From contig NZ_FOJP01000018.1 in the NCBI RefSeq assembly GCF_900111835.1, positions 1 to 64,000 on the forward strand: 64,000 nt of DNA, given 5' to 3'. Position 1 is the stretch's first letter, and the number at the start of each line of letters is the position of its first letter. Positions 37,788 to 48,566 of the stretch are shown piece by piece. The notes beneath the pieces are model-generated. The model searched no databases, was not told the origin of the DNA, and was given only the letters and a program-made list of their open reading frames with translations. The position numbers were made by a program, and so were the translations under genes. The stretch comes from Metapseudomonas otitidis (GTDB lineage Bacteria; Pseudomonadota; Gammaproteobacteria; Pseudomonadales; Pseudomonadaceae).

Positions 37788-37852
37788 GTGCAGTCTCCCG
37801 CCCGTGGGGGCGTTGTTTCAGGTTGGCGACCATCCTAGGAGAGGGCGTAGGA

Positions 37853-37866
37853 TTCGATAATTCGAA
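37853..37866. promoter_or_regulatory. LysR-type T-N11-A box
   Basis: TTCGA-TAAT-TCGAA has perfect 5-bp arms and contains a T-N11-A match (T37853, A37865). It stands between divergent LysR and DJ-1/PfpI genes, 66 bp from the latter start. This is the usual site for autoregulation and activation of the divergent gene. Confidence 0.5.
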
Positions 37867-37891
37867 AGCTCTTATTCCTGGTATCCAAAAA

Positions 37892-38815
37892 GTGAATATC
37901 GCCAACAAGGACCTGAACCTGCTGCTGGTCTTCCATGTGCTCTACCAGGAGCGCAACGCCTCGGTGGCGGCCGAGCGCATGGCCCTCAGCCAGCCGGCCC
38001 TGAGCCACAAGCTGAACAAGCTGCGCCACCAGTTGGGCGACCCGCTGTTCGTGCGTGCGCCGCGCGGGCTGACGCCGACGCCCCGGGCCCACGAGCTGGC
38101 ACCGCGCATCCAGTGCCTGGTGGCGGAGCTGGAGGCCTTCTACGAACACAGCGACGGCCAGGACTTCCTCCAGCGCGCCGAGCGCATCCACCTCTACAGC
38201 ACCGACTACATGGAGCAGACGTTGCTGCCCGAACTGCTGCCGGTGTTGCGCCGCGAGGCACCGAACCTGGTGCTGGTGACCCACAACACCCGTGGCCTGC
38301 TCCCCCGTGAGGAACTGGAGAAGGGCACCTGCGACCTGGCCATCGCCGGGTTCTACGCCGACCTGCCGGACACCTTCCACCAGCAGCGCCTGCTCAGCGA
38401 GGACTTCGTGGTGCTGGCCTGGCGCGACAACCCGCACCTGGTCAGGGGGCTGGACCTCGACGCCTTCGTCGCCTGCGAGCACCTGCTCACCACCCTCACC
38501 GGCGACCTGGCCGGGCGGGTCGACCAGGCCCTGGCTGCGCTCGGTCGCCAGCGGCGGGTGGCGGCGGGGCTCTCCAGCTTCCTGGCGCCGCCCCGGCTGT
38601 TGCCCGGCACCGACCTGCTGCTGACCTGCCTGCGTTCCGTGGCCGAGGACGCGGTGGCCCGCGACCCGTCGCTGTGCCTGCATGCGCTGCCGGAGGCGCT
38701 GGCCCTGCCGAAGGTGGAGGTGATGCAGATCTGGCACCAGCGCACGGCCAGCGACCCGTTGCGGCGTTGGGTCCGCCAGCAGATCCAGGAGGCTGCCCGG
38801 CGCTTGCAGGGCTGA
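37892..38815 (+). CDS. LysR-type transcriptional regulator
   Basis: 307 residues if started at GTG 37892 (VNIANKDLNLLLVF), which gives the normal LysR N-terminus. The upstream in-frame ATG at 37823 would run through the putative operator. A winged HTH (about 8-66; RNASVAAERMALSQPALSHKL) is followed by a type 2 periplasmic-binding-like effector domain (about 90-300). It resembles the NodD/PnbR-like group with ...FVRAPRGLTPTPRA. It probably controls the divergent DJ-1/ABM pair. The ligand is unknown. Confidence 0.87.
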   Translation: MNIANKDLNLLLVFHVLYQERNASVAAERMALSQPALSHKLNKLRHQLGDPLFVRAPRGLTPTPRAHELAPRIQCLVAELEAFYEHSDGQDFLQRAERIHLYSTDYMEQTLLPELLPVLRREAPNLVLVTHNTRGLLPREELEKGTCDLAIAGFYADLPDTFHQQRLLSEDFVVLAWRDNPHLVRGLDLDAFVACEHLLTTLTGDLAGRVDQALAALGRQRRVAAGLSSFLAPPRLLPGTDLLLTCLRSVAEDAVARDPSLCLHALPEALALPKVEVMQIWHQRTASDPLRRWVRQQIQEAARRLQG

Positions 38816-38816
38816 A

Positions 38817-38834
38817 CTGTTGCTGGGGCAACAG
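38817..38834 (+). promoter_or_regulatory. Inverted repeat, candidate enhancer (UAS) for a sigma-54 activator, copy 1
   Basis: CTGTTGC-TGGG-GCAACAG is a perfect 7-bp inverted repeat, 100 bp upstream of the sigma-54 promoter at 38917. The same repeat with one different spacer base stands 101 bp upstream of the sigma-54 promoter at 45886. A second small repeat CAAC-A-GTTG lies at 38867-38875. Because it starts just after the LysR stop codon, terminator function is an alternative, but no T-run follows. Confidence 0.6.
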
Positions 38835-38916
38835 ATGTTCAGCAATTTGCCCTGCTGTGCAGATTCCAACAGTTGTTCGTTTTAAATAACTCACTGATTA
38901 ATAAGGATTATTTTTC

Positions 38917-38932
38917 AGGCACGGGTTGTGCA
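38917..38932 (+). promoter_or_regulatory. Sigma-54 (-24/-12) promoter of the SfnB-like operon
   Basis: AGGCACGGGTTGTGCA has the invariant GG-N10-GC and matches TGGCACG-N4-TTGCA at nearly all informative positions. Transcription would start near 38943, which makes the ATG at 38997 the natural start of the first gene. Confidence 0.75.
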
Positions 38933-38996
38933 ATCGATCTCTTCGCAAGCGTACGCGGCTGCTCGCGACGCAACAGGAATGATCGAGAACGGACCC

Positions 38997-40232
38997 ATGA
39001 CCCACCCTTCCGAACCCAAGGACCCGCGTGACCAGGCGCCCCCGCTACTCCCGGCGGCGCTGATCGAGAACGACGCCCAGGCCCTGCACGCCGCCCACGA
39101 AGTGGCCAGGCAGGCCCGGGATGGCGCCGCCCAGCGTGACCGCGACCGCCAGTTGCCCTGGCCCGAAGTGGAACTCTTCACCCGCCTGGGCCTGGGGGGC
39201 ATTCGCATCCCCCGCGCCTATGGGGGGGCCGAGGTTTCCCATGTGACCCTCGCCGAGGTGTTCCGCATCCTCTGTGTCGCCGACCCGGCACTGGGGCAGA
39301 TCCCGCAGAACCAGTTCGGCCTGCTCAGCGTGATCGAAAACGTCGGCAGTGAAGCGCAGAAGCGCCAGGTGTTCGCCGGCATCCTCGCAGGGCGCCGCCT
39401 GGCCAATGCCGGGCCCGAGCGCAATACCAAGCACACCCTGGAGATCAAGGCGCGCATCACCCGGGGCGACGCCGGCCTGGAGGTGAGCGGCGAGAAGTTC
39501 TATTCCACCGGCGCCCTGTTCGCCCATTGGGTGGCGGTCAAGGCCCTGGATGACAGCGGCACCGGCGTGCTGGCCCTGGTGGAGCGGGGCGTGCCGGGGC
39601 TGGCGATAGTCGACGACTGGTCCGGCTTCGGCCAGCGCACCACCGCCAGCGGCACCGTGCTGCTGGATCGCGTACCGGTGGCGGACGACCTGGTGTTCCA
39701 CAACAGTCGCCTGGCCGAGGTGCCGAGCATCCAGGGCGCGCTGTCACAGCTGATCCAGGCGGCCATCGACGCCGGTATCGCCGAGGCTGCCATCGGCGAC
39801 GCCATCGCCTTCATCCGCGAGCGCTCGCGGCCCTGGGTGGACGCCGGCGTCGAGCGTGCCAGCGAGGAGCTGTACACCATTGCCGAGATCGGCCGCCTGA
39901 AGACCGAGCTGAACGCCGCCAACGCGCTGCTGGAGCGCGCCGGCCAGGTGCTCGACGAAGTGGCCGCCGCGCCCATCGACGCCGCAGCGGCCGCCCGCGC
40001 TTCCATCGCCGTGGCCGAGGCCAAGGTGCTCACCACCGAGATCAGCCTGCTGGCCAGCGAGAAGCTGTTCGAGCTGGCCGGCAGCCGCGCCACCCTCGCC
40101 GAGTTCGGCCTAGACCGGCACTGGCGCAATGCCCGGGTGCACACCCTCCACGACCCGGTGCGCTGGAAGGTCCACGCCGTCGGCAACTACCACCTGAACG
40201 GCGCCTTCCCGGCCCGCCATTCCTGGATCTGA
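38997..40232 (+). CDS. SfnB-like acyl-CoA-dehydrogenase-type flavoprotein, first copy
   Basis: 411 residues from the ATG at 38997. The frame is open upstream to 38928, but that codon lies inside the sigma-54 promoter; an ATG at 38979 also remains possible. An N-terminal helical domain, a middle beta domain with KFYSTGALFAHW and DDWSGFGQRTTASGTV, and a C-terminal helical bundle match the acyl-CoA dehydrogenase fold of the SfnB/DszC-like monooxygenase group. Such enzymes act on sulfones or sulfonates, with reduced flavin supplied by a separate reductase. The role in sulfur acquisition is inferred from similarity, the sigma-54 promoter and the neighbours. Confidence 0.85.
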   Translation: MTHPSEPKDPRDQAPPLLPAALIENDAQALHAAHEVARQARDGAAQRDRDRQLPWPEVELFTRLGLGGIRIPRAYGGAEVSHVTLAEVFRILCVADPALGQIPQNQFGLLSVIENVGSEAQKRQVFAGILAGRRLANAGPERNTKHTLEIKARITRGDAGLEVSGEKFYSTGALFAHWVAVKALDDSGTGVLALVERGVPGLAIVDDWSGFGQRTTASGTVLLDRVPVADDLVFHNSRLAEVPSIQGALSQLIQAAIDAGIAEAAIGDAIAFIRERSRPWVDAGVERASEELYTIAEIGRLKTELNAANALLERAGQVLDEVAAAPIDAAAAARASIAVAEAKVLTTEISLLASEKLFELAGSRATLAEFGLDRHWRNARVHTLHDPVRWKVHAVGNYHLNGAFPARHSWI

Positions 40233-40241
40233 GGAGGCGCC

Positions 40242-41450
40242 ATGACCATTGCCCATCCCCACCCACACGCCCCCGTGGCAATCATCCGTGACGACGACGA
40301 AGCCCTGGAGGTGGCGCGCCAGGTGGCCGACCTGTTCCGGCCCGGCGCTGCCGAGCGCGACCGCGAGCGCCGCCTGCCCCTGGACGAACTGGAGCTGTTC
40401 AGTCGCACCGGCCTCTGGGGCATCAGCGTGCCCCGCGAGTTCGGCGGGGCCGGCGTGTCCCGTGTCACCCTGGCGCGGGTCATCGCGCTGATCAGCGCAG
40501 CCGACAGTTCCCTCGGGCAGATCCCGCAGAACCACTTCTATGCCCTGGAAGTGCTGCGGGTGAACGGCAGCCCCGAACAGCAGCGCCGCCTGTTCGCCGC
40601 CGCTCTGGCCGGCGAGCGTTTCGGCAACGCCCTGGCAGAGATCGGCACCCGCACCGCCAACGACCGCACCACCCAGCTGGTGCGGGACGGCGAGGGCTAC
40701 CGCATCCGTGGCCGCAAGTTCTACTGCACTGGTGCCCTCTACGCCCACCGCGTGCCGACCCTGGTGGTGGCCGAGGATGGCCACCAGTACCTGGCCTTTG
40801 CCGAGCGCAACGCGCCGGGGCTGACGGTGATCGACGACTGGTCGGGCTTTGGCCAGCGCACCACCGGCAGCGGCTCGGTGGTGTTCGACGACGTGCCGGT
40901 GGCGGCCGAGGACCTGGTGTCCTTCCAGGCCGCCTTCGAGCGCCCGACCACGGTCGGGCCTTTCGCCCAGATCCTCCATGCCGCCATCGACGTCGGCATC
41001 GCCCGCGCCGCCTACGAGGATGCGCTGGCCTTCGTCCGCACCCGTTCGCGGCCGTGGATCGACGCCGGGGTCGACAAGGCCAGCGACGACCCGTTGCTGA
41101 TCCACGCCTTCGGCCACCTGGCCATCCGCCTGCACGCCGCCGAGGCCATCCTCGACCGCGCCGGCCGGCTGCTGGATGCCGCCAGCGCCGAGCCCACCGC
41201 CGACAGCGTGGCCGCTGCGTCCCTGGGGGTGGCCGAGGCCCGTGCGCTGACCACCGAGGTCTCGCTCAGTGCCGGCAGCAAGCTGTTCGAACTGGCCGGC
41301 ACCCGCGCCAGCCTCGCCGAGCACAACCTCGACCGCCACTGGCGCAACGCCCGGGTGCACACCCTGCACGACCCGGTGCGCTGGAAGTACCACGCGGTGG
41401 GCAACTACTACCTCAATGACGTGCTGCCACCGCGCCGGGGGACGATCTGA
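40242..41450 (+). CDS. SfnB-like acyl-CoA-dehydrogenase-type flavoprotein, second copy
   Basis: 402 residues, a paralogue of the preceding gene over its full length. Blocks such as DDWSGFGQRTTGSGSV, RSRPWIDAGV and LDRHWRNARVHTLHDPVR are identical or nearly so. The start has GGAGG upstream, and only 9 bp separate it from the first copy. Its stop overlaps the start of the LLM monooxygenase (TGATG). Two successive SfnB-type enzymes in one operon suggest either different substrates or a heteromeric enzyme. No flavin reductase gene is present in the window. Confidence 0.87.
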   Translation: MTIAHPHPHAPVAIIRDDDEALEVARQVADLFRPGAAERDRERRLPLDELELFSRTGLWGISVPREFGGAGVSRVTLARVIALISAADSSLGQIPQNHFYALEVLRVNGSPEQQRRLFAAALAGERFGNALAEIGTRTANDRTTQLVRDGEGYRIRGRKFYCTGALYAHRVPTLVVAEDGHQYLAFAERNAPGLTVIDDWSGFGQRTTGSGSVVFDDVPVAAEDLVSFQAAFERPTTVGPFAQILHAAIDVGIARAAYEDALAFVRTRSRPWIDAGVDKASDDPLLIHAFGHLAIRLHAAEAILDRAGRLLDAASAEPTADSVAAASLGVAEARALTTEVSLSAGSKLFELAGTRASLAEHNLDRHWRNARVHTLHDPVRWKYHAVGNYYLNDVLPPRRGTI

Positions 41451-42892
41451 TGGCGCGCAAGCAGATCCTCCTCAACGCCTTCAACATGAACTGTGTGGGG
41501 CACATCAACCACGGCCTGTGGACCCACCCGCGCGACCGCTCCACGGACTACCGCAGGCTCTCCTACTGGACGGAGCTGGCGCAGCTGCTGGAGCGTGGCC
41601 TGTTCGACGGGCTGTTCCTGGCGGACATCGTCGGCGTCTACGACGTCTACCAGGGCAACGTCGACCTGACCCTGAAGGAGAGCATCCAGCTGCCGGTCAA
41701 CGACCCGCTGCTGCTGGTCTCCGCCATGGCGGGGGTAACCCGCCACCTGGGCTTCGGCGTTACCGCCAACCTCAGCTACGAGCCGCCGTACCTGTTCGCC
41801 CGGCGCATGAGCACCCTGGACCACCTGAGCGAGGGGCGCGTGGGCTGGAACATCGTCACCGGCTACCTGGAGAGCGGGGCCCGTGCCATGGGCCGCAGCC
41901 AGCAGGTGGAGCACGACCGCCGCTACGACCAGGCCGACGAGTACCTGGAGGTGCTCTACAAGCTCTGGCAAGGCAGCTGGGAAGCCGGGGCGGTGGTCAA
42001 CGACCGCCAGCGCCGGGTCTACGCCCATCCGGACAAGGTGCACAAGGTGGTGCACCACGGCGAATTCTTCGACGTGGAGGGTTACCACCTCTGCGAACCC
42101 TCGCCGCAGCGCACGCCGCTGCTGTTCCAGGCCGGCTCCTCGGCGCGCGGCCTGCGCTTTGCCGGCGAGCATGCCGAGTGCGTGTTCATCAGCGGCAGCA
42201 ACAAGGCCGCGACCCGCGCCCAGGTGGACAAGGTGCGCGCCGCCGCCGTGGCCGCCGGCCGTGATCCGCAGGCGGTGAAGGTGTTCATGGGCATCAGCGT
42301 GATCGTCGCGCCCACCGAGGCCGAGGCCCGCGCCAAGCACGCCGAGTACCTGGCCCATGCCAGTGCCGAGGCGGGTGTCGCCCACTTCGCCAGCTCCACC
42401 GGCATCGACTTCGCCCGCTTCGCGCTGGACGAGCCGATTCCCTACATGAAGACCAACGCCATCGAGTCCGCTGCCAGCAAGCTGCGTGACAACAGCCTGA
42501 CCCGCCGCGACCTGCTGGAGCAGCACGCCCTGGGTGGCCGCTACGTCCTGCTGGTGGGTTCGCCGACCCAGGTGGCCGACGAGCTGCTGGCGTGGATCGA
42601 CGAGACCGGGCTGGACGGCTTCAACCTCACCCGCATCGTCACCCCGGAGAGCTACGCCGACTTCATCGACCTGGTGGTGCCGGAGCTGCAGGCCCGAGGT
42701 GCCTACAAGACCGCCTATGCCGAAGGCACCCTGCGCCACAAGGTGTTCGGCGCGGGGGATCAGCTACCGGCGGACCATCGTGGAGCCCGTGTGGGAGCGA
42801 ATTCATTCGCGAATCGGCCCGAAGGGGCGACCCCGGACTCCCAGGGGAAGGCTGCGCCTTCCATCGCGAATGAATTCGCTCCCACGACCTGA
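41450..42892 (+). CDS. LLM-class flavin-dependent monooxygenase (NtaA/SnaA/DszA group), REPIN-extended C-terminus
   Basis: 480 residues. The body is a bacterial-luciferase-like TIM barrel with the family signatures GLFDGLFLADIVGVYD (about 50-65), SEGRVGWNIVTGY (about 128-140) and LLFQAGSSARGLRFAGEHAE (about 224-243). The NtaA/SnaA/DszA group oxidises substrates such as nitrilotriacetate, dibenzothiophene sulfone or dimethyl sulfide with FMNH2. Here a sulfur compound is the likely target. Residues 448-480 (from VGANSFANR on) are encoded by a REPIN and are not expected in relatives; the ancestral end is probably near DQLPADHRGAR. It is translationally coupled to the upstream flavoprotein gene. 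Confidence 0.87.
   Translation: MARKQILLNAFNMNCVGHINHGLWTHPRDRSTDYRRLSYWTELAQLLERGLFDGLFLADIVGVYDVYQGNVDLTLKESIQLPVNDPLLLVSAMAGVTRHLGFGVTANLSYEPPYLFARRMSTLDHLSEGRVGWNIVTGYLESGARAMGRSQQVEHDRRYDQADEYLEVLYKLWQGSWEAGAVVNDRQRRVYAHPDKVHKVVHHGEFFDVEGYHLCEPSPQRTPLLFQAGSSARGLRFAGEHAECVFISGSNKAATRAQVDKVRAAAVAAGRDPQAVKVFMGISVIVAPTEAEARAKHAEYLAHASAEAGVAHFASSTGIDFARFALDEPIPYMKTNAIESAASKLRDNSLTRRDLLEQHALGGRYVLLVGSPTQVADELLAWIDETGLDGFNLTRIVTPESYADFIDLVVPELQARGAYKTAYAEGTLRHKVFGAGDQLPADHRGARVGANSFANRPEGATPDSQGKAAPSIANEFAPTT
42791..42885. repeat. REPIN (paired REP elements) inside the 3' end of the monooxygenase gene
   Basis: GTGGGAGCGAATTCATTCGC at the left and its inverted counterpart GCGAATGAATTCGCTCCCAC at the right enclose about 55 bases. 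This is the known Pseudomonas REP sequence in doublet form. It is read in frame as protein up to a stop at 42890-42892, just beyond the element. Confidence 0.9.
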
Positions 42893-42916
42893 ACCCATTA
42901 CCCACGGATAGAAACC

Positions 42917-43711
42917 ATGCCCAAGCACACCCTCAAAACCCTGGTCCTTGGACTGCTGCTGGCCAGCGGCATCGCCCAGGCCGCCGACAAGCCCCTCAAG
43001 CTCGGCACCACCGCCGCCTTTGCCCCACCCCTGGAAGTGGCGGTGGAGGAGGCCGCCAAGCAGGGCCTCAAGGTCGAGCTGGTGGAGTTCACCGACTGGA
43101 ACACGCCGAACATCACCCTGGCCAATGGCGACATCGACGCCAACTACTTCCAGCACACGCCCTTCCTGGAGAACGCCAACAAAGAGGGTGGGTTCACCCT
43201 GAAGGCCTTCGCCCCCGGGATCATCAACAACGTCGGCCTCTACTCGAAGAAGTACAAGGCCATCGCCGATCTGCCTGAGGGCGCCAAGGTGGCCATCGCC
43301 AACGACCCCATCAACGGCGGTCGTGGCCTGCAGCTGCTGCAGAAGGCCGGCCTGCTGAAGCTCAAGGAAGGCGTGGGCTACAAGGCGACCCTGGATGACA
43401 TCGTCGAGAACCCCAAGCACATCGACATCATCGAGCTGGAGGCCGTGCAACTGGTGCGCGCCCTGGACGACGTCGACCTGGCCCAGGGCTACCCGCACTA
43501 CATCCGCCTGGCCGGCACGATCGACCCCAACAGCGCGCTGCTCTTCGACGGCATCGAGAACAAGGAGTACGTCATCCAGTTCGTCACCCGTGGCGATTAC
43601 CAGGACGACGGCCGCCTGGCCAAGTTCGTCGAGGTGTACCAGCACTCGCCGCAGGTGCGTGCCGCACTCGACAAGGCTCATGGCTCGCTCTACCAGCCCG
43701 GCTGGCAGTGA
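42917..43711 (+). CDS. MetQ/NlpA-family substrate-binding protein
   Basis: 264 residues with a cleavable signal peptide (ending GIAQA, about residue 22) and no lipobox cysteine. The family patterns are present: VELVEFTDWNTPNITLANGDIDANYFQHTPFL (described here by its key D-N-T-P and Y-F-Q-H residues), GIINNVGLYSKK and VAIANDPINGGRGLQLLQ. It should bind methionine or a related sulfur compound in the periplasm and deliver it to the MetNI-type transporter encoded downstream. A 356-bp gap rich in repeats separates it from metN, which is unusual for this transporter. Confidence 0.88.
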   Translation: MPKHTLKTLVLGLLLASGIAQAADKPLKLGTTAAFAPPLEVAVEEAAKQGLKVELVEFTDWNTPNITLANGDIDANYFQHTPFLENANKEGGFTLKAFAPGIINNVGLYSKKYKAIADLPEGAKVAIANDPINGGRGLQLLQKAGLLKLKEGVGYKATLDDIVENPKHIDIIELEAVQLVRALDDVDLAQGYPHYIRLAGTIDPNSALLFDGIENKEYVIQFVTRGDYQDDGRLAKFVEVYQHSPQVRAALDKAHGSLYQPGWQ

Positions 43712-43727
43712 CGTCCCTGGGATAGGC

Positions 43728-43825
43728 GTGGGAGCGAATTCATTCCCGAAAGGAGCGCGCAGCGCTCCCGGGCGGCCCCGGCAGGGCAGTCCTTCGGCCT
43801 GCATCGCGGATGAATCCGCTCCCAC
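43728..43825. repeat. REPIN (paired REP elements) downstream of metQ
   Basis: GTGGGAGCGAATTCATTC at the left and GGATGAATCCGCTCCCAC at the right frame a GC-rich middle. The arms are slightly diverged from the copy at 42791-42885. Confidence 0.88.
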
Positions 43826-43901
43826 TCTAGGGACGACTTCAGTCGCCCAGAGGCAGCAGCGCTACCTCAATGGAGTCGAGGAGCAGCCCTGTGGGCTGCC
43901 T

Positions 43902-43922
43902 GGCGAATGAGTTCGCCCCTAC
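43902..43922 (-). repeat. Single REP element
   Basis: On the minus strand GTAGGGGCGAACTCATTCGCC resembles one REP arm (variant GTAGGGGCGAATTCATTCGCC) without an opposite partner. Confidence 0.6.
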
Positions 43923-43966
43923 GGAGGTTCGCCGTGCGGTTTGGTCGAGGGGGCTGGTGGACGCGC

Positions 43967-44014
43967 GTAGCCCGGGAGCTGTGCCGGATATCCCCGGGCT
44001 GAAGCCTGGGCTAC
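43967..44014. repeat. GTAGCCCGGG inverted repeat
   Basis: GTAGCCCGGG (43967-43976) pairs with CCTGGGCTAC (44005-44014), one mismatch, enclosing a second small stem. It looks like another dispersed intergenic repeat type; it could also attenuate transcription into metN. Confidence 0.5.
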
Positions 44015-44067
44015 TGCCTTCCACGGCTCCGCTTTTCGGGCTTTAAACAGATTTTCGAGAGGCCCAC

Positions 44068-45144
44068 ATGGTCAGTTTCAATCGCAACATCCGCCTGGAC
44101 CTGCCGCACATCCGGCTGCAGGGGCTGGGCAAGGCCTACCCTGGCAACCAGGGGCCGGTGCAGGCGCTGCAGGGCATCGACCTGGAAATCCGCCGGGGCG
44201 AGGTGTTCGGCATCATCGGCCGCAGCGGCGCCGGCAAGTCGTCGCTGATCCGCACCCTCAACCGCCTGGAGAAGCCCTCGGTGGGCCAGGTGGTGATAGA
44301 CGAGGAAGACATCGGCACCTTCGACGAGAAGCAGCTGGTGCTGCTGCGTCGCCGCGTCGGCATGATCTTCCAGCACTTCAACCTGATGTCGGCCAAGACC
44401 GTCTGGCAGAACGTCGCCTTGCCGCTGAAGGTGGCGGGCGTGGCCAAGGCCGATATCGAGCGCAAGGTCGCCGAGCTGCTGGCCCTGGTGGGCCTGGCGG
44501 AGAAGCGCGACGCCTACCCGGCGCAGCTGTCCGGCGGGCAGAAGCAGCGGGTTGGCATCGCCCGCGCGCTGGTGCACCAGCCGGAGATCCTGCTCTGCGA
44601 CGAGGCCACCTCGGCGCTGGACCCGGAAAGCACCCAGTCGATCCTGGCGCTGCTGCGTGACATCAATCGGCGCCTGGGCCTGACCATCGTGCTGATCACC
44701 CACGAGATGGGCGTGATCCGCGAGATCTGCGACCGCGTGGTGGTGCTGGAGCGGGGGCGGGTGGTGGAGCAGGGCGAGGTCTGGCAGGTGTTCGGCGACC
44801 CGCAGCACGCAGTCACCCGCACCCTGCTGGGCACCCTGCGCCACGAGTTGCCAGACGACCTGCAAGGCCGCCTGGCCAACGAACCGGTGCCCGGCGGTGA
44901 CCTGCTGCTGGACCTGCACTTCACGGGTGCCAGTGGCCGCGAGCCGGACCTGCTGGCCATTGCCCAGGGCCTGGGCGCGCGGGTGAGCCTGTTGCATGGC
45001 GGCATCGACCGCATCCAGGGACGCCCGCAGGGGCACCTGCTGGTGCGGGTCGGCCTGGCCGGGCTGGGCAGTACGCAGGTGCTGGAGCGTGCCCACCAAC
45101 TGGCGGACAAGGCGGAGGTGCGTGGCTATGTCGCCCATGCTTGA
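44068..45144 (+). CDS. metN: MetN-type ABC transporter ATPase
   Basis: 358 residues. Walker [10 protein letters not shown] (51-59), Q-loop IFQHFN, signature [15 protein letters not shown], Walker [17 protein letters not shown], and an H-loop ITHEMG. The C-terminal part (about 275-358) is a NIL (ACT-like) domain, which in MetN binds methionine and inhibits transport. The permease gene overlaps its end by 17 bp. Methionine or another small sulfur compound is the likely cargo. Confidence 0.92.
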
Positions 45145-45781
45145 TCGGCTCTGGACCGGGCTGCTGGACACCCTGCTGATGATCGGCGCCTCGTCGCTGA
45201 TCGTGCTGCTGGTGGGCATTCCGCTGGCGTTGGTGCTGGTGACCACCGGGCCGGGCGGGATCTTCGAGGCACGTGTGCTGAACCGCACCCTGGGCAGCGT
45301 GGTGAACGTGCTGCGTTCGGTGCCCTTCCTGATCCTGATGGTGGCGCTGATTCCCTTCACCCGGTTGATCGTCGGCACCAGCTACGGCGTCTGGGCCGCG
45401 GTGGTGCCGCTGACCATCGCTGCCACGCCGTTCTTCGCGCGCATCGCCGAGGTGAGCCTGCGGGAGGTGGATTTCGGTCTGGTGGAGGCGGCCCAGGCCA
45501 TGGGTTGCCAGCGTCGTCACATCATCTGGAATGTGCTGCTGCCGGAGGCGCGGCCGGGCATCGTCGGTGGCTTCACCATCACCCTGGTGACCATGATCAA
45601 CTCCTCCGCCATGGCCGGCGCCATCGGCGCGGGCGGCCTGGGCGACCTGGCGTACCGCTACGGCTACCAGCGCTTCGACACTCAGATCATGCTCACGGTG
45701 ATCATCGTGCTGGTGCTGCTGGTGACCCTCATCCAGTTCGGCGGCGACCGCCTGGCGCGGTTGCTGAACAAGCGGGCCTGA
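45128..45781 (+). CDS. metI: MetI-type ABC transporter permease
   Basis: 217 residues from ATG 45128 (GGAGG upstream), the usual MetI length. A second ATG lies three codons further in. Five hydrophobic segments; the EAA-like loop [22 protein letters not shown] contacts the ATPase (key E-A-A and the G seven residues on). It ends before the inverted repeats at 45785-45824. It forms a MetQNI-type importer with the two preceding genes. Confidence 0.92.
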
Positions 45782-45784
45782 GGG

Positions 45785-45824
45785 CTGTTGCTGGAGCAAC
45801 AGTCCGGCAACAGGCTGTTGCCGG
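45785..45824 (+). promoter_or_regulatory. Inverted repeats, candidate sigma-54 activator enhancer, copy 2
   Basis: CTGTTGC-TGGA-GCAACAG (45785-45802) repeats the motif found at 38817. A second perfect repeat, CCGGCAACAG-G-CTGTTGCCGG (45804-45824), carries the same half-sites in the opposite order. It may also terminate metI transcription, although no T-run follows. The first repeat is 101 bp upstream of the sigma-54 promoter. Confidence 0.6.
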
Positions 45825-45885
45825 GTGTACAGCAGGGCGAGGCAGGGCAGGGCGCCAGGCCGCGCCGGCCGGGGCGCTGAGGGTT

Positions 45886-45901
45886 GGCATGGCGGCTGCA
45901 T
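45886..45901 (+). promoter_or_regulatory. Sigma-54 (-24/-12) promoter of the SsuABC-like operon
   Basis: TGGCATGGCGGCTGCA has GG-N10-GC and fits TGGCACG-N4-TTGCA with two mismatches. Transcription would begin near 45912, about 70 bp before the first ATG. Confidence 0.75.
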
Positions 45902-45983: not shown

Positions 45984-46991
45984 ATGAGCCATTTCCCCCT
46001 GCGGGCCCGCCGGCCCGGTTTTCTCGGTCGCGTCGTCGGGCTGCTGGCCGCCTGCGCGGTACTCGCCTCGCCGTTGGCCGCCCAGGCCGAGACGCCGCCT
46101 GAGCAGGTCCGCCTCGACTACGCCTACTACTCGCCCACCAGCCTGGTGCTGCGCCATTTCGGCTGGCTGGAGCAGGCCCTGGGCCCGGATACGCGGGTGA
46201 GCTGGGTGCTGAGCCAGGGCAGCAACCGCTCGCTGGAGTACCTCAACGGCGGCAGCATCGACTTCGCCTCCACCGCCGGGTTGGCGGCCGTCCTGAGCCG
46301 GGCCAACGGCAGCCCGATCAAGACCGTGTACATCGCCAGCCGCCCCGAGTGGACGGCCCTGGCGGTACGCAAGGACTCGCCGATCAAGACCCTGGCCGAC
46401 CTCAAGGGCCGCAAGATCGCCGCGACCAAGGGCACCGATCCCTACCTGTTCACCCTGCGCAGCCTGGAACAGGCCGGCCTGGGCAAGGACGACGTGGAGC
46501 TGGTGCACCTGCAGCACCCGGATGGCCGCGTGGCCCTGGAGCGCGGTGACGTGGACGCCTGGGCCGGGCTCGATCCGCACCTGGCGGCCAGCCAGCTGCA
46601 GTCGGGGGCGCGCATCCTCTACCGCAACCTGGATTTCAACAGCTACGGGGTAGTGAGCGTGACCGAGGGCTTCGCCGCCGAACACCCGCAGACCATCAAG
46701 CAGGTGCTGCAGGCCTATGAGAAGGCCCGGCAGTGGGCGCGGGAGAACCCCGAGCCGCTGGCGGAGCTGCTGGCCAAGGAGTCCGGCCTGCCGCTGGAGG
46801 TGGCGCGGCTGCAACTGTCGCGCACCGACTTCTCCAACGCCCAGCCGGGCGCGGAGCACATCGCTGCGCTGAAGGCGGCGGCGCCGATCCTCGCCAGCGA
46901 GGGCCTGGTACGCCGTGGCGTGGACGTGGCCCAGGTGGTGGACCAGTTGATCGACCCGAGCTTTGGCACCCAGGCCATCGCCCGCCAGTGA
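45984..46991 (+). CDS. SsuA-like sulfonate-family substrate-binding protein
   Basis: 335 residues with a long signal peptide (about 1-36, ending PLAAQA). The mature protein shows the SsuA/TauA/NMT1-like pattern: DYAYYSPTSLVLRHFGWLE, QGSNRSLEYLNGGSIDFAST (key S-N and D-F-A residues), LADLKGRKIAATKGTDPY and GLDPHLAASQL. It probably binds an aliphatic sulfonate or sulfate ester in the periplasm. It is the first gene of a three-gene ABC operon behind a sigma-54 promoter. The precise ligand is not readable from sequence. Confidence 0.9.
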   Translation: MSHFPLRARRPGFLGRVVGLLAACAVLASPLAAQAETPPEQVRLDYAYYSPTSLVLRHFGWLEQALGPDTRVSWVLSQGSNRSLEYLNGGSIDFASTAGLAAVLSRANGSPIKTVYIASRPEWTALAVRKDSPIKTLADLKGRKIAATKGTDPYLFTLRSLEQAGLGKDDVELVHLQHPDGRVALERGDVDAWAGLDPHLAASQLQSGARILYRNLDFNSYGVVSVTEGFAAEHPQTIKQVLQAYEKARQWARENPEPLAELLAKESGLPLEVARLQLSRTDFSNAQPGAEHIAALKAAAPILASEGLVRRGVDVAQVVDQLIDPSFGTQAIARQ

Positions 46992-47013
46992 TGCAGTACC
47001 CCAGGAGAGCCCG

Positions 47014-47856
47014 ATGAGCAGCAAGAGCAAGACCCTGGCGGTGCCGCCGCGCCCCTGGCGACCCGCCGTGCCACTGGCCGCGCTGGTGGTGCGGGCCAAG
47101 GGGCTGGCGATTCCCCTGGCGGCGATCCTGCTGCTGGAGGTGGCCGTGCGTGCGGGCTGGGTGCCGGCGTACCAGATGCCGGCCCCCAGCGACATCCTGC
47201 TGACCCTGCAGGAGCTGGCGGCCGGGCCGCTGTGGGGGCATATCGGGGTCAGCCTGGGGCGCGTGGCCGCCGGGTTCGCCGTGGGGGCGTCCCTGGCGCT
47301 GGTCGCTGCTGCCTGGGTGGGTCTGAGCCGCGAGGCGGAGGCCTACCTGGAGCCGACCCTGGCCGCGTTGCGGGCGATTCCCAGCCTGGCCTGGGTTCCG
47401 CTCCTGCTGCTGTGGCTGGGCATCGACGAGCGTTCGAAGGTGGTGCTGATCGCCATCGGTGCGTTCTTCCCGGTTTACCTGAACGGGGTGGCGGCGATCC
47501 GCAACATCGACCGCAAGCTGGTGGAGGTGGGGCGCATGTACGCCTTCGGGCGGCTTCGGCTGGCCCGCCGCATCCTGTTGCCGGCGGCCCTGCCGGGGCT
47601 GTTCACGGGGTTGCGGGGTGGACTCAGCCTGGCCTGGATGTTCCTCGTGGCGGCTGAGCTGATCGCGGCCACCCGGGGCCTGGGCTACCTGCTGACCGAC
47701 GGCCGGGAAACCTCGCGGCCGGACCTGGTGCTGGCGGCGATCATCGTCCTGGCGCTGCTGGGCAAGCTCAGCGATGGGCTGCTGGCGACGCTGGAGCGGC
47801 GCCTGCTGGTGTGGCGCGATGCCTTCGCCGGCGAAGGCGGGGAGGCGCAACCATGA
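47014..47856 (+). CDS. SsuC-like ABC transporter permease
   Basis: 280 residues from the ATG with AGGAGAG upstream. Six hydrophobic segments and the EAA loop (VEVGRMYAFGRLRLARRILLPAALP, key E-G and the distal LPAALP) are as in SsuC/TauC. TRGLGYLLTDG near residue 220-230 is typical of the family. The stop overlaps the ATPase start (ATGA). It transports the compound captured by the preceding binding protein. Confidence 0.9.
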   Translation: MSSKSKTLAVPPRPWRPAVPLAALVVRAKGLAIPLAAILLLEVAVRAGWVPAYQMPAPSDILLTLQELAAGPLWGHIGVSLGRVAAGFAVGASLALVAAAWVGLSREAEAYLEPTLAALRAIPSLAWVPLLLLWLGIDERSKVVLIAIGAFFPVYLNGVAAIRNIDRKLVEVGRMYAFGRLRLARRILLPAALPGLFTGLRGGLSLAWMFLVAAELIAATRGLGYLLTDGRETSRPDLVLAAIIVLALLGKLSDGLLATLERRLLVWRDAFAGEGGEAQP

Positions 47857-48566
47857 GCCTGCCCCTGCTGGATTTCCGCGTACAGCGCAAGGCGTTCGCC
47901 GGGCACACGGTGCTGCAGGACGTGCACCTGCAACTGGCCGAGGGCGAGGTGGTGAGCCTGCTGGGCCCCAGTGGCTGCGGCAAGAGCACCCTGCTGCGCA
48001 TCGTCGCCGGCCTGGAGCGTGACTACAGCGGCCAGGCGCTGCGCGGTGAAGGCGAGGTGGCCTTCGTGTTCCAGGAGCCGCGCCTGATGCCCTGGCTGAC
48101 GGTGGCGGAGAACATCGGTTTCGCCGATGACCGGGCCTACGACCGGCCCCGGGTGGCGCAACTGATCCGCGAGGTGGGGCTGGAGGGGTTCGAGCAGGCC
48201 CTGCCCAAGCAACTGTCGGGCGGGATGGCCCAGCGCGTGGCCATTGCCCGGGGGCTGTATTCGCGGCCCCGGGTGTTGCTGCTGGATGAGCCCTTCAGCG
48301 CGGTGGATGCCTTCACCCGGATGAAGCTGCAGGATTTGCTGCTGGCCCTGGCTGCGCACCACGGCATTGCGCTGCTGCTGGTCACCCACGATGTGGACGA
48401 GGCCCTCTACCTGGGCGACCGCGTGCTGGTGATGGGCAGTCGCCCGGGGCGGGTGCTGGAGACGTTGGAGGTGCCGCTCGCACGCCCCCGCGACCGACGC
48501 GACCCGCTGCTGGCGCAGTTGCGTGCCGAGGCGTTGACGGCGTTGCACCGGGCCCACGCGTTCTAG
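47853..48566 (+). CDS. SsuB-like ABC transporter ATPase
   Basis: 237 residues. Walker A GPSGCGKST (38-46), Q-loop FQEPRLMPWLTVAENI (strongly SsuB/TauB-like), signature LSGGMAQRVAIARGL, Walker B VLLLDEPFSAVD and H-loop VTHDVDEAL. It completes the SsuABC-type importer. Translation is coupled to the permease by an ATGA overlap. Only 6 bp separate its stop from that of the convergent HD-GYP gene. Confidence 0.93.
   Translation: MSLPLLDFRVQRKAFAGHTVLQDVHLQLAEGEVVSLLGPSGCGKSTLLRIVAGLERDYSGQALRGEGEVAFVFQEPRLMPWLTVAENIGFADDRAYDRPRVAQLIREVGLEGFEQALPKQLSGGMAQRVAIARGLYSRPRVLLLDEPFSAVDAFTRMKLQDLLLALAAHHGIALLLVTHDVDEALYLGDRVLVMGSRPGRVLETLEVPLARPRDRRDPLLAQLRAEALTALHRAHAF

Follow-up and report, generated by a model that had tools for sequence, protein, structure and literature searches.

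We analyzed a 64,000-nucleotide stretch of the Metapseudomonas otitidis genome (contig NZ_FOJP01000018.1 of assembly GCF_900111835.1, positions 1 to 64,000; hereafter the window) that carries two sulfur-type operons, each preceded by a copy of the inverted repeat CTGTTGC-N4-GCAACAG and by a sigma-54 promoter. By profile matching, operon 1 comprises two SfnA/SfnB-family genes, a gene for a flavin mononucleotide (FMN)-dependent monooxygenase and the genes of a Met-type ATP-binding cassette (ABC) importer, and operon 2 those of an Ssu-type ABC importer (Table 1). These families agree with an earlier note on this DNA, which had read an SfnB-like/monooxygenase operon behind the first promoter and an SsuABC-like importer behind the second. 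It had also proposed that one SfnR-like enhancer-binding protein co-regulates the two, and the genome comparison described below makes this the best-supported reading. Because the GTG listed as the start of the first gene (38928) sits inside promoter 1, we placed the start at the ATG at 38997, which by eye matches the relatives at loci L094 and L097 and is probably the true start; that of the MetI-like permease gene probably lies further in than the listed 44996. Operon 1 is adjoined by a gene for a LysR-type regulator, the orthologue of which lies more than 100 kb from the sfnA-type gene in three genomes (G002, G003 and G011).

Both repeats are exact and stand where the earlier note had placed them. 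The window contains two exact copies of the palindrome, whereas 100 window shuffles averaged 0.01, and this pair represents the only exact copies in the 6.34-Mb genome (0.019 expected from base composition). When one mismatch was allowed, a scan of the genome returned 8 places, including the two exact ones, versus 4 for the reversed control. The second promoter was found at the claimed position and at the claimed 101 bp from its repeat (TGGCATGGCGGCTGCAT, GG at 45886–45887), whereas the first had been placed one base early, at 38917, with a distance of 100 bp; its GG lies at 38918–38919 (AGGCACGGGTTGTGCAA). The distance from palindrome start to GG is thus 101 bp in both cases, a tighter match than first claimed. 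Promoter scans of the two regions found no sigma-70-like promoter at either site.

Table 1 Features of the two operons, their control regions and related loci of the same genome (C13 and C15, contigs of this genome; L045, the locus of the activator gene)
Feature	Position	Strand	Match or score
LysR-type regulator gene adjoining operon 1, distantly BsrA-like	37823..38815	same as operon 1	best NCBIfam match BsrA, below cut-off
Enhancer 1, palindromic core CTGTTGC-TGGG-GCAACAG	38817..38834	+	36.6 bits (matrix from other loci); model R1 27.8 bits, E 1.7e-7 in window
Enhancer 1, third half-site CAGCA (CA at +26/+27 from palindrome start)	38840..38844	+	position from comparison only
Sigma-54 promoter 1, GG-CACGGGTTGT-GC	38918..38931	+	16.9 bits, second best promoter of window
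SfnA/SfnB-family flavin monooxygenase-like gene	38997..40232	+	TIGR04022, 575.6 bits, over cut-off
Second SfnB-family gene	40242..41450	+	TIGR04022, 638.7 bits, over cut-off
NtaA/DmoA-type FMN-dependent monooxygenase	41450..42892	+	TIGR03860, 546.2 bits, over cut-off
MetQ/NlpA-type substrate-binding lipoprotein	42917..43711	+	PF03180, 264.6 bits; NCBIfam MetQ models below cut-offs
MetN-like ABC ATPase with NIL domain	44068..45144	+	PF00005 and PF09383; TIGR02314, 357.5 bits, below cut-off
MetI-like ABC permease	44996..45781 (as listed)	+	NF008049, 224.7 bits, over cut-off
Enhancer 2, palindromic core CTGTTGC-TGGA-GCAACAG	45785..45802	+	26.9 bits; model R1 25.0 bits, E 1.2e-6 in window
Enhancer 2, third half-site CAACA (CA at +26/+27)	45808..45812	+	position from comparison only
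Sigma-54 promoter 2, GG-CATGGCGGCT-GC	45886..45899	+	17.4 bits, best promoter of window
SsuA-family aliphatic sulfonate binding protein	45984..46991	+	TIGR01728, 273.2 bits, over cut-off
SsuC-like permease	46963..47856 (as listed)	+	NF008470, 191.3 bits, below cut-off
SsuB-like ATPase	47811..48566 (as listed)	+	NF008420, 189.4 bits, below cut-off
Box and sigma-54 promoter with the betaine/choline-type ABC transporter and homocysteine S-methyltransferase-like genes	C13:188261-192502 (in L046)		all below NCBIfam cut-offs
SfnR-like activator P0001, 366 residues	C15:205641-206738		PF00158 at residues 24-187
FMN-reductase-like open reading frame (ORF)	L045, ending 6427		assigned by eye through resemblance to L075 (over the MsuE cut-off)
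DszC/SfnB-like ORF	L045:6445-7632		both models below cut-off
Activator gene, after the two preceding ORFs	L045:7642-8742

To compare the arrangement across genomes, we searched 248 Pseudomonadaceae genomes with a strict pattern, CTGTTG-N6-CAACAG joined to GGC-N8-TGC at 70–100 bp, which returned 59 rows spread over 39 genomes; its reversed control returned none. We kept 47 sites after dropping a G008 row that duplicated one of G007, a row that gave an already counted box an alternative promoter, and ten intragenic-looking rows, the last judged by eye from the downstream frame to be chance matches; all ten lie inside open frames of 119–655 codons (lengths taken from the dropped rows alone). Forty of the 47 kept sites precede sfnG, sfnF/msuE-type reductase, SfnA/SfnB-family, ssuA-type or ssuD genes, the families being assigned by resemblance and checked on representatives only. 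The genome-wide search for which the earlier note had called thus found the box-and-promoter combination mostly at sulfur genes. The arrangement is also present at sfnFG/sfnG, the classical target: box and promoter precede an sfnF-sfnG-like pair in G007 and G008 (loci L011 and L012), and sfnG in the present genome (L006) and in G005 (L014).

Alignment of the kept sites on the palindrome gave the consensus (A/G)CTGTTGC-N4-GCAACAG(T/C)-N4-CRACA. The bases CA at +26/+27 from the palindrome start, which were outside the search pattern, are present at all 47 kept sites versus 2 of the 10 dropped ones; the repeat therefore belongs to a larger enhancer. Its third half-site (CRACA) lies 11 bp past the CAACA of the right arm, and a weaker ACA, matched at 27–31 of the 47 sites per base, follows about 20 bp further on; enhancer 1 of the window has A instead of T/C after the right arm. 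The spacing from palindrome to GG is 100–104 bp at 29 of the 47 sites and 91–92, 106, 110, 113 or 117–118 bp at the rest (88–118 bp being allowed), classes that fit the helical repeat only uncleanly. At 45804–45824, a separate 21-bp palindrome, CCGGCAACAG-G-CTGTTGCCGG, shares bases with the third half-site of enhancer 2; no counterpart was seen at enhancer 1.

We then built weight matrices from 38 sites, leaving out the window pair and the sites before orthologues of the sfnA- and ssuA-type genes of the window, and keeping the sfnG site of the present genome along with several sites at SfnB-family genes. With these matrices, the two repeats took the top box scores in the window (36.6 and 26.9 bits), third place (20.5 bits) going to the opposite-strand reading of repeat 2; the highest score in each of 20 Markov sequences of 64 kb lay between 1.6 and 16.9 bits. 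The two best sigma-54 promoters were likewise those at 45886 and 38918 (17.4 and 16.9 bits), followed by one of 15.3 bits. Orthologues of the ssuA-type gene occurred in 63 of the 248 genomes (E 1e-100) and those of the sfnA-type gene in 75 (E 1e-150), and 29 others of each were fetched and scanned at thresholds of >12 bits for the box and >6 bits for the promoter. Box and promoter were found before 17 of the 29 ssuA-type orthologues, at 91–103 bp, and before 9 of the 29 sfnA-type orthologues, at 101–103 bp. The ssuA-type orthologues so equipped made up 17 of the 25 in genomes with the activator described below, versus none of the four in genomes without it. In G035, which belongs to another genus, boxes stand before both operon types, 11 kb apart, each with a spacing of 103 bp.

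The earlier note had stated that the window holds no gene for such an activator, which is correct; a good candidate, P0001, is encoded on another contig of the same genome. A profile search of this genome for PF00158 gave 30 matches. P0001 has an AAA+ domain from residue 24 and a GAFTGA motif, lacks an N-terminal sensor domain and is presumably a true SfnR orthologue; an alkanesulfonate monooxygenase gene (over cut-off) lies downstream of it. The genome also encodes RpoN. Relatives of at least 75% identity to this activator occur in 70 of the 248 genomes, namely in all 32 genomes with a kept site versus 38 of the remaining 216 (Fisher p 4e-21, uncorrected for relatedness). In 13 of the 32, as picked by eye, a kept box and the activator gene share a contig at a distance of 1.9–15.5 kb.

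A 50-position sequence model, for which 43 sites in other genomes served as the training set, singled out five distinct places in the present genome at E ≤0.0016, the next distinct one being at 0.5 among the best 150 of 4078 candidates scored; rows at E 0.0018–0.043 were the same palindromes read on the opposite strand. The five are the window pair, the sfnG site (C15:210693-210737), C13:188261 and C15:203703, and each has a GG-N10-GC 101–104 bp downstream. The C13 box stands 103 bp from TGGCATGAAGTCTGC, ahead of genes for an ABC transporter of betaine/choline type and for a protein resembling homocysteine S-methyltransferase, which could be an operon for the use of sulfonium compounds; orthologues of the transporter occur in five genomes, with a box only in this one and G005 (102 bp) and none in the three others. 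The weaker box at C15:203703 (21.0 bits) lies upstream of the sfnE-sfnC-sfnR-like genes, 103 bp before TGGAACGGGACTTGC; box and promoter together span L045:5697-5813. This promoter scored 8.6 bits, less than the weakest of the 38 training promoters (10.3). That the sfnR cluster has a box and promoter of its own suggests positive autoregulation, and we predict both it and the C13 operon to be SfnR targets.

Taken together, these comparisons make it highly probable that SfnR, encoded elsewhere in the genome, switches both window operons, each through an enhancer and a sigma-54 promoter of its own. In the mechanism that we propose, SfnR, as a free-standing sigma-54 enhancer-binding protein, would bind the enhancer upstream of each operon, consisting of the palindrome, the third half-site and often the weaker ACA. 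By looping, the bound protein would then reach RNA polymerase–sigma-54 waiting roughly 101 bp off at a promoter of the TGGCA(C/T) type, and would open this promoter, probably upon sulfate shortage. As a result, uptake of the presumed substrates by the Met-type and Ssu-type ABC importers would be turned on together with carbon–sulfur bond cleavage or oxidation by the SfnB-type and DmoA-type monooxygenases.

Several observations weigh against this proposal. With a first pattern (full arms and GGC-N9-GC at 65–95 bp) applied to 18 genomes of the same genus, 6 rows in 4 genomes stood against one match in the reversed control. Seven of the 47 kept sites precede genes that are not known to be of organosulfur type (four an AMP-binding enzyme, two a Peripla_BP_4 protein and one a betaine-type ABC transporter), and the genomes are mutually related, which makes site counts non-independent. 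Of the 70 genomes with the activator, 38 have no kept strict-pattern site; scans of 900 bp found no box before 8 of the 26 ssuA-type genes in activator genomes, that of the window counted, and scans of up to 1500 bp found none before 20 of the 29 sfnA-type orthologues. In G008 the activator match is partial (residues 3–231 only), and in G001, where the activator group is represented only by a 63% paralogue, a relaxed box precedes sfnA. Nor was the name SfnR found among the 120 of 2074 homologues listed, whose names were partly missing or cut; plasmid records with an activator match numbered 114 and bore generic names, none being SfnR among the 15 listed.

The G001 case also bears on whether a different enhancer-binding protein, such as the approximately 60–66% identical SfnR paralogue of many relatives, works these sites. 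Of the six methanotroph genomes in which box and spacing recur, five encode a 57–62% relative. Against this, the present genome has only one group protein at E ≤1e-95 (among the best 8 of 39 candidates scored), and co-occurrence is complete for the group of at least 75% identity; we consider such an activator improbable, although one may act in relatives. The earlier note had itself raised the caveat that the repeats could be terminators. Hairpins that end transcription of the upstream LysR and MetI-like permease genes would indeed account for repeats that begin right after stop codons (38815 and 45781; the core of enhancer 2 begins three bases past the latter) and could form a 7-bp stem. However, neither repeat is followed by a T-run, and terminator scans were empty at both, the sole terminator-like site found lying inside ssuA at 46002–46017. 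The arm sequence, the third half-site outside the hairpin and the promoter distance are all conserved, none of which termination needs, and the same box precedes sfnG and sfnF in other genomes. We therefore rejected the terminator reading, which we regard as very unlikely.

The palindrome might also be the site of the adjoining LysR-type regulator, as a T-N11-A LysR box can be read inside it, the gene lies next to it on the same strand, and BsrA, its best NCBIfam match, has sites that contain T-N11-A according to a passage in PMC8407307. Yet the orthologue of this regulator occurs in 18 of the 248 genomes and, among the 32 genomes with kept sites, in the present one only. The boxes go with sigma-54 promoters, a class that LysR proteins are not known to activate. 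On these grounds the LysR reading, which we find scarcely credible, was also rejected, leaving SfnR as the preferred regulator of the two operons.

Scanning GTDB species genomes with an extended pattern yielded at least 118 loci and at least 121 places, with labels derived partly from the matches themselves. The loci listed are mostly from Pseudomonas. Sulfur-type labels apply to 70 of the 121 places listed, 23 have no label, and 28 carry other recurrent labels (OppA-like 9, AMP-binding 8, Peripla_BP_4 5, and TonB-type, RbsA-like and amino-acid permease 2 each). Six Pseudomonas loci (L065, L079, L084, L085, L121 and L146) have a box spaced at 104 bp before a gene resembling the AMP-binding-enzyme gene of L079. 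In six further loci of the scan (L108, L111, L114, L141, L178 and L187), a recurrent variant spaced at 89–90 bp (100 bp in L187) precedes a gene for an ABC substrate-binding protein, which in L108 resembles TIGR04028, below cut-off.

Among the loci listed, seven from six genomes of Methylococcaceae/Methylovulum (L110, L118, L119, L144, L150, L183 and L207) have the box 101–103 bp before a sigma-54-like promoter. The next genes encode a ShlB/FhaC-type protein (L110) or a CecR/TetR-type regulator (L183, and L207 by likeness) or have no Pfam match (L119, L144 and L150), and no recognised sulfur gene was seen among the next genes read, at all seven loci except L118. A near-full-length activator relative of 57–62% identity is encoded in all of these six genomes but one, G251, which has only partial matches, the best at 49%. 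Elsewhere, Cupriavidus basilensis has a box before a reductase-type gene with a 69–70% activator relative in the same locus (L212), and Kluyvera cryocrescens has one before an SfnB-like gene (51%; L136) and a 51% activator relative in its genome. It is conceivable, with somewhat less than even chances, that SfnR-family activators share one old enhancer code, made of the palindrome, a third in-phase half-site and a distance of about 101–104 bp to the sigma-54 promoter. In pseudomonads it would serve a wider organosulfur program than described, including the Ssu-type importer, a sulfonium-type (betaine-like) importer with homocysteine S-methyltransferase and positive feedback on the sfnR cluster. 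In methanotrophs the same code, read by the 57–62% activator, would have been redirected to genes that are not recognisably of sulfur type.

In P. putida, SfnR and sigma-54 are already known to control sfnFG and sfnA; our analysis would add an improved cis-element and newly predicted targets. In open-licence full texts, a set that excludes the original SfnR papers, we found no paper joining the motif with SfnR, and the main text of a P. aeruginosa binding-site atlas (PMC8041468) contains neither SfnR, PA2354 or PA2359 nor TGTTGC or CAACAG. A concrete and testable definition of the SfnR enhancer should make the SfnR regulon readable from sequence, with three predicted new members: the Ssu-type importer, the sfnR cluster and the betaine-type ABC/homocysteine S-methyltransferase operon, for which S-methylated sulfonium compounds are possible substrates. 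The near-fixed distance between enhancer and promoter may also offer a simple system for studying how spacing limits activation by looping.

PspF is a free-standing bacterial enhancer-binding protein, and PspF-type activators, like P0001, are AAA+ proteins with GAFTGA and a sensorless N-terminus; they differ from P0001 in target genes and DNA site. In P. aeruginosa PAO1, passages in PMC8234197 describe SfnR1, SfnR2 and the msu operon (Lundgren 2019), with SfnR proteins grouped with organosulfur genes as in the present genome, and a passage in PMC12581299 reports that sulfur starvation raises the SfnG, SfnR1, MsuCDE and SsuBDE proteins. For P. putida DS1, the sigma-54-dependent SfnR is reported to act on sfnFG and sfnA (Endoh 2003/2005, Habe 2007 and Kouzuma 2008, as cited in PMC8234197, PMC13352529 and PMC10949508). 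SfnR is itself reported to be under the control of CysB. The sfnAB pair of P. putida, as a passage in PMC8234197 has it, stands with ABC transporter genes, a likeness to operon 1 of the window. The likeness to the P. putida SfnR regulon extends to the activator gene of the present genome, which follows sfnE- and sfnC-like ORFs. The P. putida gene order is sfnECR, with sfnE encoding an FMN reductase and sfnC a DszC-like monooxygenase. Beyond the targets named for P. putida DS1, box and promoter here also stand at the sfnR cluster, the Ssu-type importer and the betaine-type ABC/homocysteine S-methyltransferase operon.

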